NCBI GenBank assembly: GCA_017829005.1
Contig: JAGAJF010000012.1
Location: 1-38,546, forward strand
Direction: 5' to 3'
Length of the DNA stretch: 38,546 bases
Source: Oscillospiraceae bacterium
GTDB taxonomy: Bacteria; Bacillota; Clostridia; Oscillospirales; Ruminococcaceae
Shown here: positions 1 through 4,434 of the stretch, piece after piece
How positions within the stretch are numbered: the first letter of the stretch is position 1
How the letters are laid out: each line of letters starts with the position of its first letter
The notes under the pieces: generated by a model
What the model saw: only the letters and a program-made list of their open reading frames with translations
Databases searched by the model: none
What the model was told of the DNA's origin: nothing
Position numbers and translations under genes: made by a program

Positions 1-515
1 CCCGGCACTGCATAATTACTCTTGGGCTGTTCCGGCTTCTCTTCAATGGAAAGCGCCATGCCGTTTTCATCAAACTCAACCACACCATACTCTCTGGGAT
101 CTCTTACATAATAGCCGAAAATAGTCGCTCCCTGTTCCCTGGACGCTACTTCCCGCAGTACTTTGGAGAAACTCTGTCCATAGAATATATTATCGCCCAG
201 AACCAAAGCAACACTGTCATCCCCGATAAAATCCGCACCGATAATAAAAGCATCGGCAAGTCCTCTCGGATATTCCTGTACCGCATATTCCATCCGCAGT
301 CCCAACTGCTCTCCTGTGCCGAAGAGCTCCTTAAATACCGGCAAATCTCTCGGAGTAGAGATAATGAGTATATCTCTGATCCCTGCCAGCATCAATGTTG
401 ACAGCGGGTAGTAAATCATGGGCTTATCGTACACCGGCATAATTTGTTTTGAAATCGCCTTCGTCAGCGGGTACAATCTTGTACCGGAACCGCCTGCAAG
501 TATAATACCTTTCAT
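1..515 (-). CDS. rmlA: Glucose-1-phosphate thymidylyltransferase, N-terminal part (cut by window edge)
   Basis: This enzyme makes dTDP-glucose from glucose 1-phosphate and dTTP, the first step of dTDP-L-rhamnose synthesis for cell-wall polysaccharides in the cytosol. The frame starts [18 protein letters not shown], the nucleotidyltransferase G-rich loop, followed by [16 protein letters not shown] and the VLGDNIFYG motif near residue 110, all diagnostic of RmlA. About 171 of roughly 290 residues are present; the 3' end lies beyond position 1. The ATG at 515 matches the family start. An ATG four codons upstream is too close to the AGGAG at 529-533. It is third in a minus-strand block after the VTC-like and DUF4956 genes, 160 bp downstream of the latter. 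Codon style differs from genes beyond 2.7 kb. Confidence 0.95.
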
Positions 516-632
516 GTCTATAACCATTCTCCTTTCTCATCCTCAAATTTATAGGCATATGCGAAACGCGTCACAGCGTCTACCTAATTGTGCGAATTTA
601 TGTCCTTCTCTTAAACATGCTGTCATTTCATG

Positions 633-658
633 GGAAGAATCCGCAAATGCATTCTTCC
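633..658 (-). terminator. Hairpin downstream of the DUF4956 gene, possible terminator
   Basis: A perfect 8-bp stem (GGAAGAAT/ATTCTTCC) with an inner GCA/TGC pairing lies 18 nt after the DUF4956 stop codon. There is no clear U-tract on the minus strand, so it may be a processing or stability hairpin and not a true intrinsic terminator. Confidence 0.35.
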
Positions 659-675
659 TGACAAAACCCGATCTT

Positions 676-1350
676 TTAGAAGGTTACCTCCCCGTCATGA
701 TCTACCAGGGATGCAGAAGTAACACATTCCAAATCCATCAGCTTCTCTACCATACCGGCACCCTTGTCAGTTTTGACTTCGACTGCCATATCCAGTTTCG
801 TCTTCGTCAGATTTCTCGCTTTTACCTTATACATACTGCAATGGCTTTCCACGATGTTCATGATCTGACTCTCCGTCTTGTAATCAGTGGTATTTACCAA
901 AAGAATCACTGCCGCCTTATCAACGGATATTCTTTCAAATAATAATACTATCACAGTTATGATAACCGATGCAATCACTGCTACAATGGCAAATCCTGCT
1001 CCGCAGATAATACCGATGCTGATCGCCCAGAATAAAAACACCAGATCCATGGGATCTTTGATTGCCGTACGGAATCTTACAATAGACAAAGCACCCACCA
1101 TACCGAGGGAAATAACAATATTAGACTGAATGGTCAGAATAATCGCCGCTGTAATGACAGCCAGTGCTATCAAAGACAGGTTGAAATTCCGGTTATAAAA
1201 TGCATTTCTGTTTAAAATGCGGTAAACCATAAAGATATACGCAGCGATCAGCACCGTAATCAACATACAAATAATAATTTCCGCCACGTCAATCCGGCTG
1301 GAAGCATACCCTTCCAAAAAAGACTTCTTAAAAATATCTGCAAAATTCAT
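676..1350 (-). CDS. DUF4956 family membrane protein
   Basis: This is a polytopic membrane protein of about 224 residues whose biochemical role is not established. It has hydrophobic segments at roughly residues 25-45, 58-75 and 85-140, and the family hallmark VGALSIVRFRTAIKDP in the middle, followed by a soluble C-terminal domain of about 85 residues. The start is placed at the ATG at 1350, seven codons into the longest open frame, because GGAGG lies about 9 nt upstream and the ATG overlaps the TGA of the upstream VTC gene (ATGA). DUF4956 genes commonly sit beside VTC-type polyphosphate polymerase genes, as here, so the two products probably work together, perhaps in polyphosphate handling at the membrane. 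That functional link is inference from gene order. Confidence 0.88.
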   Translation of the reverse strand: MNFADIFKKSFLEGYASSRIDVAEIIICMLITVLIAAYIFMVYRILNRNAFYNRNFNLSLIALAVITAAIILTIQSNIVISLGMVGALSIVRFRTAIKDPMDLVFLFWAISIGIICGAGFAIVAVIASVIITVIVLLFERISVDKAAVILLVNTTDYKTESQIMNIVESHCSMYKVKARNLTKTKLDMAVEVKTDKGAGMVEKLMDLECVTSASLVDHDGEVTF

Positions 1351-1757
1351 ACTCTGATTCCTCCGTAGCAATTATATTTTCTGCACAAATAATATTTAGA
1401 AAAACTGGTCCACTGCAAAGAGTCCAGTTCTAACTGCTCCTTGATGTAGGATGGCAGGAATTCATCCCATTTCACCTCCAGGATACTCTGCCCTGTGGGC
1501 AATATCTGTCTAAGAGATATCTCAGAGTCCAGAAATCCTGCTATATCATTGGAAGAGGCAATGTTATAGTCAAATGTGACCCGGACATTCCCTGCTTTAT
1601 GGATATACGGTGTTCTCATATACTGCACTATGACAACCGGCCTTAATGTCCGAAGCTTCATCTGGCAAAACATCGCTGCCTGCCTGGGTGAGACGCTTCT
1701 GTCCGGTTCCGGTATCCTTCCGTCCATAAAGCTTCTGCACTGATTTATCGTAATCAC
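1347..1757 (-). pseudogene. VTC domain polyphosphate polymerase, 5'-truncated at the CRISPR junction
   Basis: VTC domains form a tunnel-shaped polymerase that makes polyphosphate from ATP. The surviving C-terminal part carries RPVVIVQYMRTPYI, then GNVRVTFDYNIASS, ILEVKWDEFLP and the end motif FSKYYLCRKY, all typical of the family. Bacterial members run to about 230-250 residues. Here only about 140 residues are in frame, bounded upstream by a TGA at 1776-1778 that lies between the gene and the last CRISPR repeat. The N-terminal half, with several basic phosphate-binding residues, is missing. The GTG at 1757 is only the first start-like codon and has no convincing ribosome binding site. The break may be a real rearrangement or an assembly join. 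The 3' end overlaps the DUF4956 start by 4 nt. Confidence 0.8.
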
Positions 1758-1783
1758 AGGCGTTCTCCCATGTCCTCAGAAAT

Positions 1784-2019
1784 ATTTCAACTCACACACC
1801 CCACAAGGGGTGCGACTCGAAGGAGACAAAAAGACCGAGATCAAGATGACGATTTCAACTCACACACCCCACAAGGGGTGCGACAAGAAAGGCTGCCAAG
1901 CCTGAAAAGGCTTCAAAAATTTCAACTCACACACCCCACAAGGGGTGCGACTGAAGATTATCTTGAAGCCCTCTCAGTAATATTCCATTTCAACTCACAC
2001 ACCCCACAAGGGGTGCGAC
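1784..2019 (-). CRISPR. CRISPR array, type I-C-like, four identical 33-bp repeats and three spacers
   Basis: Four identical 33-bp repeats lie at 1784-1816, 1852-1884, 1919-1951 and 1987-2019, separated by spacers of 35, 34 and 35 bp. Read on the minus strand, each repeat begins GTCGCACCCC, has a GC-rich CACCCC..GGGGTG hairpin and ends GTTGAAAT, which is the type I-C repeat pattern. The Cas2 remnant lies upstream on the minus strand, so transcription is expected from 2019 towards 1784. The leader-distal repeat (1784-1816) is not degenerate, which suggests the array continued further and was cut. Spacer 2 contains a small hairpin (AAGCCT, GAAA loop, AGGCTT). I found no match between spacers and the rest of the window by eye. 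Confidence 0.97.
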
Positions 2020-2167
2020 TCTATATATAGTGCTAAAATAGAGCCGCCACCCATAAGTGGAGCGGACAAGACAATATAAATGTATATTTTATAGTATAAT
2101 CCTCAAAATATACACAATAATCATATAACTCATCTGACATATCCGACATCAACCGGACTTCGCAGAC
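2020..2167 (-). promoter_or_regulatory. CRISPR leader region
   Basis: This AT-rich stretch of 148 bp lies between the stop codon of the Cas2 part and the first repeat, in the usual leader position for type I-C loci. No other gene is visible in it. I cannot define the promoter with confidence; several AT-rich -10-like sequences occur around 2060-2100. Confidence 0.7.
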
Positions 2168-2669
2168 CTACAGAATAATAACACCCTCAGGATCATAGGT
2201 CTCCTTGACCCCGAAATGCTCTATCTTATTCTGCCATTTGTTTCCAAGATAATATATCCGCAGGCTGTCACGGGAATTGTCAATAATTTTCAGCAAACGC
2301 TCCTTGACTTTCAGAAATGTGCCGTAATCAACATCTATCTCGAAAACCGAGTTCTGCACACGCTGACCGTAATTCACACATTCCTTAGCGATTTTTCTAA
2401 GTCTCGTCCTGCCAGCCTTATCCGTCGTGGAAACATCATAGCTAGCACTGCAGCAGGCGTGTTCACAGCGTATATTTGCACCCTCAAGCCGCCTCTGAAA
2501 TCCGGGTCTGCATTTGCCGATATCGTGTATACGTCCAAGATAATAAGCCGCATTTTTCAGCTCAGGTATAGCAAATCCCGAAGCAAGGCGTGCCGTACCC
2601 TCAAGGTGTTCCTCTAAGGTCTGTTTTTCACCGTTGTTGCCGATGTGTGCAAAAATTTCCGTATCGCAT
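2168..2669 (-). pseudogene. Cas3(HD)-Cas2 fusion remnant of a type I-C cas operon
   Basis: A single minus-strand frame from about 2668 to the stop at 2168 encodes two unrelated Cas pieces. The first ~75 residues match the start of type I-C Cas3: FAHIGNNGEKQTLEEHLEGT, the HD metal motif in YYLGRIHDIGK, then PGFQRRLEGANIRCEH. Near position 2441 this runs directly, in frame, into Cas2: SYDVSTTDKAG, NYGQRVQNSVFE, DSLRIYYLG and a YDPEG end. A complete I-C locus has cas3-cas5-cas8c-cas7-cas4-cas1-cas2, so an internal deletion of several kilobases would give exactly this arrangement. The expected ATG at 2669 has a good Shine-Dalgarno (AAGGAAG) but is one base out of frame at a run of five T (minus strand, 2652-2658 region). 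Cas2 lacks its first beta strand. The piece is probably non-functional. Confidence 0.85.
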
Positions 2670-2685
2670 CACTTCCTTTTGTTTA

Positions 2686-2691
2686 ATTATA
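2686..2691 (-). promoter_or_regulatory. Extended -10 promoter upstream of the Cas3-Cas2 remnant
   Basis: On the minus strand TGTTATAAT gives an extended -10 element (TGnTATAAT) about 17 nt before the old cas3 ATG at 2669. No good -35 is visible. It suggests the cas promoter survives although the operon does not. Confidence 0.55.
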
Positions 2692-2763
2692 ACATATTTA
2701 CAGAAAAAAGTAGTTTTTTATAACAAAATGGAATAAAAAAATATCAAATGCTATTTCAGGTAT

Positions 2764-2795
2764 AAAAAAGCTCCTCCCGAAAAAGGGGAAGAGCC
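2764..2795 (-). terminator. Intrinsic terminator of the seven-gene operon
   Basis: On the minus strand GCTCTTCCC pairs with GGGAGGAGC (one G-U pair) and is followed directly by TTTTTT. It lies 13 nt after the epimerase stop codon. Confidence 0.9.
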
Positions 2796-2807
2796 GTAAG
2801 AAACATT

Positions 2808-3659
2808 TTATTTTATCTCAATATCAAAGGAAAAGCTGTAGCTTTCACCCGGAGCAATATGCTTTGCATGGGGCATTTCCGTAAGCTCCTCAGTGTCACA
2901 GCAGTAAACGGGAGCGCTCGCCCAAGACTCAAGGCATACAAAATGACCTCTGTCATCATAAGGCGACCACACCGCAATACAGCCCGAATTATCATAGCTT
3001 ACCGTGACTGCTTTTCCGCTCTTTCTGCTAACAAGTGAGACCTTAGAGGAATCAGGCTTGTCCTTCATAAAAACGTCGTTTTTGAAAAGCTCTCTCGTCA
3101 CCCCGACCTTGTTTCCGTTGTCAAGCACCGTAACGCCGAACTCGTCCTGAGTTATGGTCTCGTTCTTCTCATAAACCACATCATAATCTTCAAAGGAGCT
3201 GTCCTTGTCCGCCTCAAAGGGACACAAGAAACCGGGGTGACCTCCCACAAAGAAGGGCATATCATTGTCACCCGTGTTTTTAGCTTCCATAGTCACCGAA
3301 AGCCTGTCACCCGACAGAGCATATGTAACGGAAAATTCGAAATCAAAGGGATATTTCGCCTTTGTTCCCTCGTCGGAGCATATCGTAAGCGTCACCCTGT
3401 CGCCCTGAACGCTTTTCCCGCCGAACTCCGTATCTCTCGCAAATCCGTGATTTGAAAGAGCATATTCCTTTCCGTTAACAGTGTATTTCTTGCTTTTTGT
3501 GTTGCATACAAAGGGAAAAAGCAGTGGAGCGTGCCGCTTCCATACGTCCTCGGCAGTCCAGATATATTCATTGCCCGCAGTGTCTTTTAAGGAATGAAGC
3601 TCGCCGCCAAAACTGTCGATTACAGCCGTAAGCTTGTCTGATCTAATAGTGTACTGCAT
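2808..3659 (-). CDS. Aldose 1-epimerase family protein (LacX-like)
   Basis: This is a cytosolic GalM-superfamily sugar mutarotase of 283 residues, about the usual length of the LacX-like branch. It would interconvert alpha and beta anomers of a hexose or sugar phosphate. Visible family motifs include FGGELHSLKD near residue 17, APLLFPFVCN near 44, the substrate-binding NHGFARDTEF near 70 and GGHPGFLCPF near 138 with the conserved His. The ATG at 3659 is preceded by AAGGGCGG at 9 nt. It is the last gene of a minus-strand operon, 19 nt after the NYN gene and just before a strong terminator. The exact sugar cannot be told from sequence. Confidence 0.9.
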   Translation of the reverse strand: MQYTIRSDKLTAVIDSFGGELHSLKDTAGNEYIWTAEDVWKRHAPLLFPFVCNTKSKKYTVNGKEYALSNHGFARDTEFGGKSVQGDRVTLTICSDEGTKAKYPFDFEFSVTYALSGDRLSVTMEAKNTGDNDMPFFVGGHPGFLCPFEADKDSSFEDYDVVYEKNETITQDEFGVTVLDNGNKVGVTRELFKNDVFMKDKPDSSKVSLVSRKSGKAVTVSYDNSGCIAVWSPYDDRGHFVCLESWASAPVYCCDTEELTEMPHAKHIAPGESYSFSFDIEIK

Positions 3660-3678
3660 AAAAAAATACCGCCCTTCT

Positions 3679-4434
3679 TTAGTTTTTTCTGCGAATGTAA
3701 ATAACCTTCACATTACCCTTTTCCGAGGGAATGGAGTAGACCTCAAAAATGCCCATAGATTTAATAAAAGGGGTCAGCTTCTGAAAGCCGAAGCTTCGCA
3801 CATCGAAGCTGGGATACCGTTTCAGAAGGATATTGCCCACCTCGCTCAGAGAAGCCCAGCCGTCCTCGTCGGACACCTCGGAAATAATGGCGCAAATAGC
3901 TGAACGAATAGTTTTTACCTTTAAGACCTCGTGTTCACCCTCGCCGCTTTTTTCCTTCTCCTGCTCAACGTTCTCAGCAGCTTCGGCAGGCTCCGAGCTT
4001 TCGCCCTGAGCCAAAATTTCCAGATAAACGAATCTGTTGCAGGCGGAGATAAACGGGGTAGGCGTTTTCTTTTCACCCATACCGATAACATACTTTCCCG
4101 ACTCTCTGAGCCTTGCAGCAAGGCGGGTAAAATCGCTGTCGCTTGAAACGATGCAGAACCCGTCCACATTTCCCGAATACAGAATGTCCATAGCGTCGAT
4201 TATCATAGCGGAATCTGTGGCATTTTTTCCCGTAGTATAGCTGTACTGCTGAATGGGAGTAATGCTGTGATTTAAAAGCACCTGCTTCCATGAACCCAGC
4301 GCAGGACGGGTCCAATCGCCGTAAATTCGTTTGTAGGTAATAATACCGTCGTTTGAAAGCTCGTCCAGAATGGGTTTGATATACTTTTCCGAAACATTGT
4401 CAGCGTCAATCAGCACCGCAAATCTTTTATCCAT
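3679..4434 (-). CDS. NYN domain (LabA/DUF88-like) protein with C-terminal OST-HTH/LOTUS domain
   Basis: The N-terminal ~145 residues form an NYN/PIN-like nuclease fold with the acidic motifs VLIDADNVS (residues 7-15), DSAMIIDAMD (about 75-84) and VSSDSDF (about 95-101), expected to bind a metal ion for RNA cleavage. After a Glu-rich linker (about residues 147-168) there is a LOTUS/OST-HTH-like domain of about 75 residues with GWASLSEVGNILLKRYPSFD, likely to bind RNA. The combination is known in bacteria, but its target RNAs are not. The protein is cytosolic, with no signal peptide. It is sixth in a seven-gene operon, 37 nt after the transglutaminase gene. A role in RNA turnover or regulation is inference. 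Confidence 0.88.
   Translation of the reverse strand: MDKRFAVLIDADNVSEKYIKPILDELSNDGIITYKRIYGDWTRPALGSWKQVLLNHSITPIQQYSYTTGKNATDSAMIIDAMDILYSGNVDGFCIVSSDSDFTRLAARLRESGKYVIGMGEKKTPTPFISACNRFVYLEILAQGESSEPAEAAENVEQEKEKSGEGEHEVLKVKTIRSAICAIISEVSDEDGWASLSEVGNILLKRYPSFDVRSFGFQKLTPFIKSMGIFEVYSIPSEKGNVKVIYIRRKN

Follow-up and report, generated by a model that had tools for sequence, protein, structure and literature searches.

A probable remnant of a type I-C CRISPR-Cas locus with cas3 and cas2 joined in one reading frame

The window, by which we mean the whole stretch of 38,546 nucleotides analysed here, contains what most probably remains of a recently dead type I-C CRISPR-Cas locus: some 7 kb were deleted from its interior, which joined cas3 and cas2 in frame, and the cas3 start was lost as well. 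The joined frame is very likely such a dead remnant rather than a new kind of protein, since it has no normal start, the GHH and DAD motifs are absent from its HD part, its Cas2 part lacks the first residues and the partner genes are missing. The features of the locus are collected in Table 1.

Table 1. Features of the locus, with positions in the window
Feature	Position	Strand	Basis and remarks
Start position of cas3 (ACG)	2660..2662	-	ATG start in sibling G015; alignment to G015
cas3 remnant	2444..2662	-	5' end of type I-C cas3, HD part, 73 codons from ACG; TIGR01596, PADLOC Cas3c
HD codons (GRIHDIGK)	2522..2527	-	read in frame
Joint of cas3 and cas2 (GCT/AGC)	2441..2446	-	comparison with relatives
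cas2 remnant	2168..2443	-	type I-C Cas2 residues ~5/6-96 and stop codon; PF09827, TIGR01573, PADLOC Cas2c, 3oq2
Leader-side stretch, cas2 to first repeat	2020..2167	-	partly alignable to sibling G008
CRISPR array	1784..2019	-	four identical 33-nt repeats, three spacers of 34-35 nt
Spacer-like 35-nt stretch	1749..1783	-	enters truncated VTC gene; suspicious join near 1751-1757

The joined frame and its two halves

The frame runs on the minus strand from 2668 to 2168 and holds 166 codons without a stop inside, the stop codon itself occupying 2170-2168. The HD N-terminus of Cas3 comes first and type I-C Cas2 follows from codon 76 on. In family profile searches the Cas2 half is matched by PF09827 (residues 76-149, E 6.8e-22) and TIGR01573 (residues 76-164, E 3e-14); it is also matched by PADLOC Cas2c (residues 76-166, E 6.2e-38) and resembles solved Cas2 structures (PDB 3oq2, E 3.7e-29). 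The HD half matches TIGR01596 (residues 18-97, E 1.1e-11) with 45.2 bits against a cut-off of 43.45, is recognised by PADLOC Cas3c, and scores slightly below the cut-off of Pfam Cas3_HD (22.5 bits against 23.1, E 1.3e-4); among solved Cas3 structures it has a weak match to 8zns (E 0.026). Two independent family matches within one frame are not a product of chance. The HD half is 72% identical to cas3 of sibling G015 across residues 3-77, while the Cas2 half is closest to the cas2 genes of siblings G011 (apparently record L004; protein 88-90% identical) and G008. The PADLOC matches to Cas3c and Cas2c, together with the synteny with siblings, identify the two ends as derived from type I-C cas3 and cas2. 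The earlier note, made from the letters alone, had assigned the halves to Cas3 HD and Cas2 and was prepared to abandon this if homology searches disagreed; neither half failed, and the family, PADLOC and PDB matches all bear the assignment out.

The same note described one frame reading from the Cas3 N-terminus straight into Cas2. The frame is indeed open over its 166 codons, yet the first 97 of them include no ATG, GTG or TTG; the GTG at codon 98 would start a Cas2 piece of 69 residues. The ACG found where G015 has its ATG is not among the listed starts of translation table 11, and an upstream ATG at 2667-2669 (minus strand) belongs to another frame of only 13 codons. Siblings do not strictly share one start codon, cas3 of G011 beginning with TTG. 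The cas3 start codon appears lost, as judged from a single base of a metagenome assembly against the ATG of a single sibling, and with the start lost, useful amounts of protein are probably not made from the joined frame. A promoter scan found 3 promoter-like sites against 3.4 expected, and the window gave no Rfam match at gathering score and no match in a tRNA and tmRNA search.

Both halves are also incomplete as proteins. The HD, GHH and DAD motifs are metal ligands, and of the three that together mark the Cas3 HD nuclease the window keeps HD alone: the HD part ends ahead of GHH and DAD, which are present in sibling cas3, align there with the type I-C Cas3 entry 8g9u, and lie beyond the joint. 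Cas2 keeps residues 5/6-96, its own start and first residues being replaced by cas3 sequence.

Extent and age of the probable deletion

What stood between the two halves can be read from intact relatives. The window resembles the type I-C locus of Ruminococcus bicirculans 80/3 (L005), in which cas3 is the first gene and cas2 the last, and whose Cas2 is 77% identical to the Cas2 half across residues 75-166; unlike that locus, it is without cas5, cas8c, cas7, cas4, cas1 and most of cas3. The earlier note had advised looking for complete operons in relatives, and L005 and L022 are both intact, with 7,461 bp and 7,055 bp, respectively, between the points that are joined in the window. By this comparison, about 7 kb were most probably deleted from within the locus, so that cas3 breaks off near codon 73 and cas2 takes up near its codon 6; the five genes and the remainder of cas3 went with the deleted stretch. 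The loss of these same genes had been proposed from the letters, and both the relatives and the searches of the genome's own assembly agree with it.

These searches covered 2,884,078 bases in 163 contigs (93.69% complete). The effector genes cas5, cas8c and cas7 were not found: a 7,087-bp query of sibling operon DNA, which is the basis for the absence of Cas5 and Cas8c, had the cas2 remnant as its sole match, and a Cas7 HMM had none. A Cas1 HMM matched once, and as this only Cas1 of the assembly is of type II, the type I-C Cas1 was not found either. Siblings G015 and G011 carry the same neighbour genes in the same order (DNA identity 82% and 81%, respectively), with the 5' part of cas3 beside them. 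This synteny, the cas2 matches and the spacing in intact relatives indicate that the window carries the type I-C locus native to the genus, minus about 7 kb.

The joint was placed approximately, by comparison with relatives of other species, and it lies near 2441 with the frame kept, as the earlier note had it, GCT at 2446-2444 being followed by AGC at 2443-2441. The further suggestion that the palindrome GCTAGC is a possible microhomology site finds no support. A palindrome alone is not microhomology, the cas3 and cas2 ends of the relatives compared have no long word in common at the joint, and no repeat is visible at the deletion ends. A frame survives by chance in one case out of three, which tells little, and the in-frame state of the joint is probably accidental.

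The leader and array, said to remain, do so: four repeats are kept (1784-1816, 1852-1884, 1919-1951 and 1987-2019), as is the leader side at 2020-2167, where the stretch after cas2 can be aligned to sibling G008 as far as about 2081. In type I-C, crRNA is cut by Cas5; with Cas5 and the type I-C Cas1 missing, the array would be neither processed nor extended by its own system. The stretch 1749-2090 had no protospacer match in the phage collection searched.

How old could the loss be? Since most synonymous distances are saturated, we compared nonsynonymous differences only. Those of the Cas2 half amount to 0.139 from L022, 0.155 from L005 and 0.147 from L007; the intact cas2 of G011 gives 0.167, 0.163 and 0.158, and that of G008 gives 0.163, 0.167 and 0.137 in the same order. 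From two outgroups the window Cas2 is slightly farther than G008 (L007, 0.147 against 0.137; G012, 0.216 against 0.195). The Cas2 half therefore does not clearly seem faster than intact copies and, with the frame still clean, the loss looks recent; retained function would give the same picture in this comparison.

Alternative readings of the joint

Another possibility is that the joint was made by the assembler, either by leaving the operon out or by combining strains that have it with strains that lack it. We consider this unlikely, while allowing it some weight on account of the surrounding contig. A second suspicious join lies about 690 bp away on the same contig, where the array leads straight into the interior of a VTC gene at about 1755: the VTC sequence begins within the spacer-like stretch and its profile match starts at position 129 of 235. 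No second VTC match was found in the own assembly, and bases 1757-1784 (28 nt) are 93% like G013:C40:190691-190718. Bases 1-1755 are compositionally unusual, only 3 of 171 chunks being as far or further by KL and 2 of 171 by correlation. We read them as foreign DNA or a wrong join, which weakens trust in the whole contig and keeps the artefact in consideration. The array is also hard to assemble, as contig C151 (G000:C151, L125 4674-4841) ends exactly in the same CRISPR repeat, and at 93.7% completeness a contig may be missing. Against an artefact, the skipped genes would be expected on another contig and were not found in the own assembly, the cas3-cas2 joint has no repeat able to mislead an assembler, the cas3 start codon is changed too, and the stretch 2021-3775, which partly overlaps the background set, is ordinary in composition.

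Window positions 1-1757 hold nucleotidyltransferase, DUF4956 and truncated VTC genes. On C151 the outer repeat is degenerate and stands beside a gene that we take to be RapZ-like; no such array was found beside the RapZ-like gene of siblings G011 and G013 in the stretches fetched.

In the Cas2/3 fusion of type I-F the Cas2 part comes first. It is very improbable that a short HD-Cas2 hybrid is produced here from an unusual start codon, either the ACG at 2660 or an ATT close by, and keeps some nuclease or DNA-binding role; we give just as little credence to a minimal hybrid in the reverse of the type I-F order, translated from such a start and kept for a role outside immunity. The open 166 codons and the good conservation of both halves are as a working fusion would show, and fusions of Cas2 and Cas3 parts sharing a reading frame exist in type I-F (PMC7074321); Cas3 is complete there, whereas the window has about the first 73 Cas3 codons, without the helicase part, placed first in order and with the normal start lost. 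Of the two readings that the earlier note had left side by side, a snapshot of CRISPR loss is favoured by the synteny, the identity of the halves and the missing genes, while an active hybrid is opposed by the want of a usual start before codon 98, the missing motifs and Cas2 residues, the lack of a type I-C partner Cas1 in the own assembly, and the failure to find the fusion in any other genome searched.

The same fusion was indeed to be looked for in other strains. No match spanning both halves was found in the 20 genomes of the genus (19 besides the own one) or in 100 relatives, the own genome being included in both counts, nor in the 80 loci kept out of 155 relatives in a GTDB scan. Two candidates were set aside: L017 (listed residues 34-166) has separate cas3 and cas2 genes with an ordinary cas2, and G008 (listed residues 51-166) has an ordinary cas2 with its own start behind cas1.

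Decay of type I-C loci and known CRISPR-Cas loss

The probable remnant in the window is accompanied by damage of other kinds in related loci. A simple scan of the 80 GTDB loci flagged three: L007 (9422-9979), where cas4 runs in frame into the end of cas1 at a place where both genes encode LPF, unlike the joint in the window; L083, where cas7 adjoins, out of frame, a cas1 without its first 232 residues; and L061, where cas3 is cut at about residue 226 and adjoins cas4, the cas3 frame stopping ahead of the cas4 start. In sibling G008 (G008:C308, L129 3099-4451), at the end of a contig, a late part of cas3 continues in frame into cas8c, which is present from about residue 196 onward. A bias to in-frame deletions was considered, as beyond the window G008 and L007 are in frame and L083 is out of frame, L061 not being counted. 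The G008 case was found by reading lists of open reading frames, which favours in-frame joints, and was missed by the scan, so no conclusion on such a bias is drawn.

The cas3 genes of siblings G011 and G015 are both interrupted by the same sequence at the Walker A lysine codon (L128 3953-8001, G011:C24; L127 1-926, G015:C33; L004 1-280). Behind this sequence in G011 come an HsdM-like methylase (PF02384, E 4.3e-23) and a weak integrase match below its cut-off (PF00589, E 0.0046). The presence of one sequence in two siblings, together with these matches, suggests that a mobile element uses the site. Its left end was matched in full in G011 alone among 396 family genomes, with 23-24 bases matched in 2 others, and no element within the Walker A codons of cas3 was described in the literature titles and abstract openings searched. 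Elsewhere in the genus, cas3 of G012 is matched in two frames, and G017 has a long open cas3 of 731 codons. Altogether cas3 is damaged in five of the six close type I-C loci examined in the genus, all in draft metagenome assemblies; type I systems further removed, those of G001, G002 and G006, do not enter the count. The type I-C system of the genus appears to be breaking in several different ways.

Loss of CRISPR-Cas is a known process, of which the window supplies a further example. In Pseudomonas aeruginosa, an array without cognate cas genes occurs in 26 of 300 genomes according to PMC8105352; the window likewise keeps its array and has lost cas genes, and differs from those degenerate loci, as described there, in the cas3-cas2 stub that is left and in both deletion ends being readable. 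Laboratory escapers of Staphylococcus epidermidis lost immunity through deletions, insertions and point mutations, the large deletions spanning 65,712 to 306,488 nt and arising via transposons, homologous regions or a cassette, as described in PMC3784566. The window shares with these the loss of CRISPR-Cas by deletion, although its deletion is only about 7 kb and has no repeat at the joint. No HD-Cas2 fusion left by deletion was described in the literature titles and abstract openings searched.

CRISPR-Cas loss is mostly observed in its empty or orphan state, whereas the window shows both ends of the deletion. With these ends readable and cas3 damaged in most of the close loci, the genus offers a small, usable case in which to ask if interference is being shed along several independent routes within one lineage, this damage being read from draft metagenome assemblies.

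A separate CRISPR locus lies on contig G000:C60 (L126) of the own assembly. At 1031-2686 it comprises a type II Cas1 that an in-frame TAA divides, together with a Cas2 and a six-repeat array of another kind; the open reading frame ahead of it, at 3-1070, has no family match.
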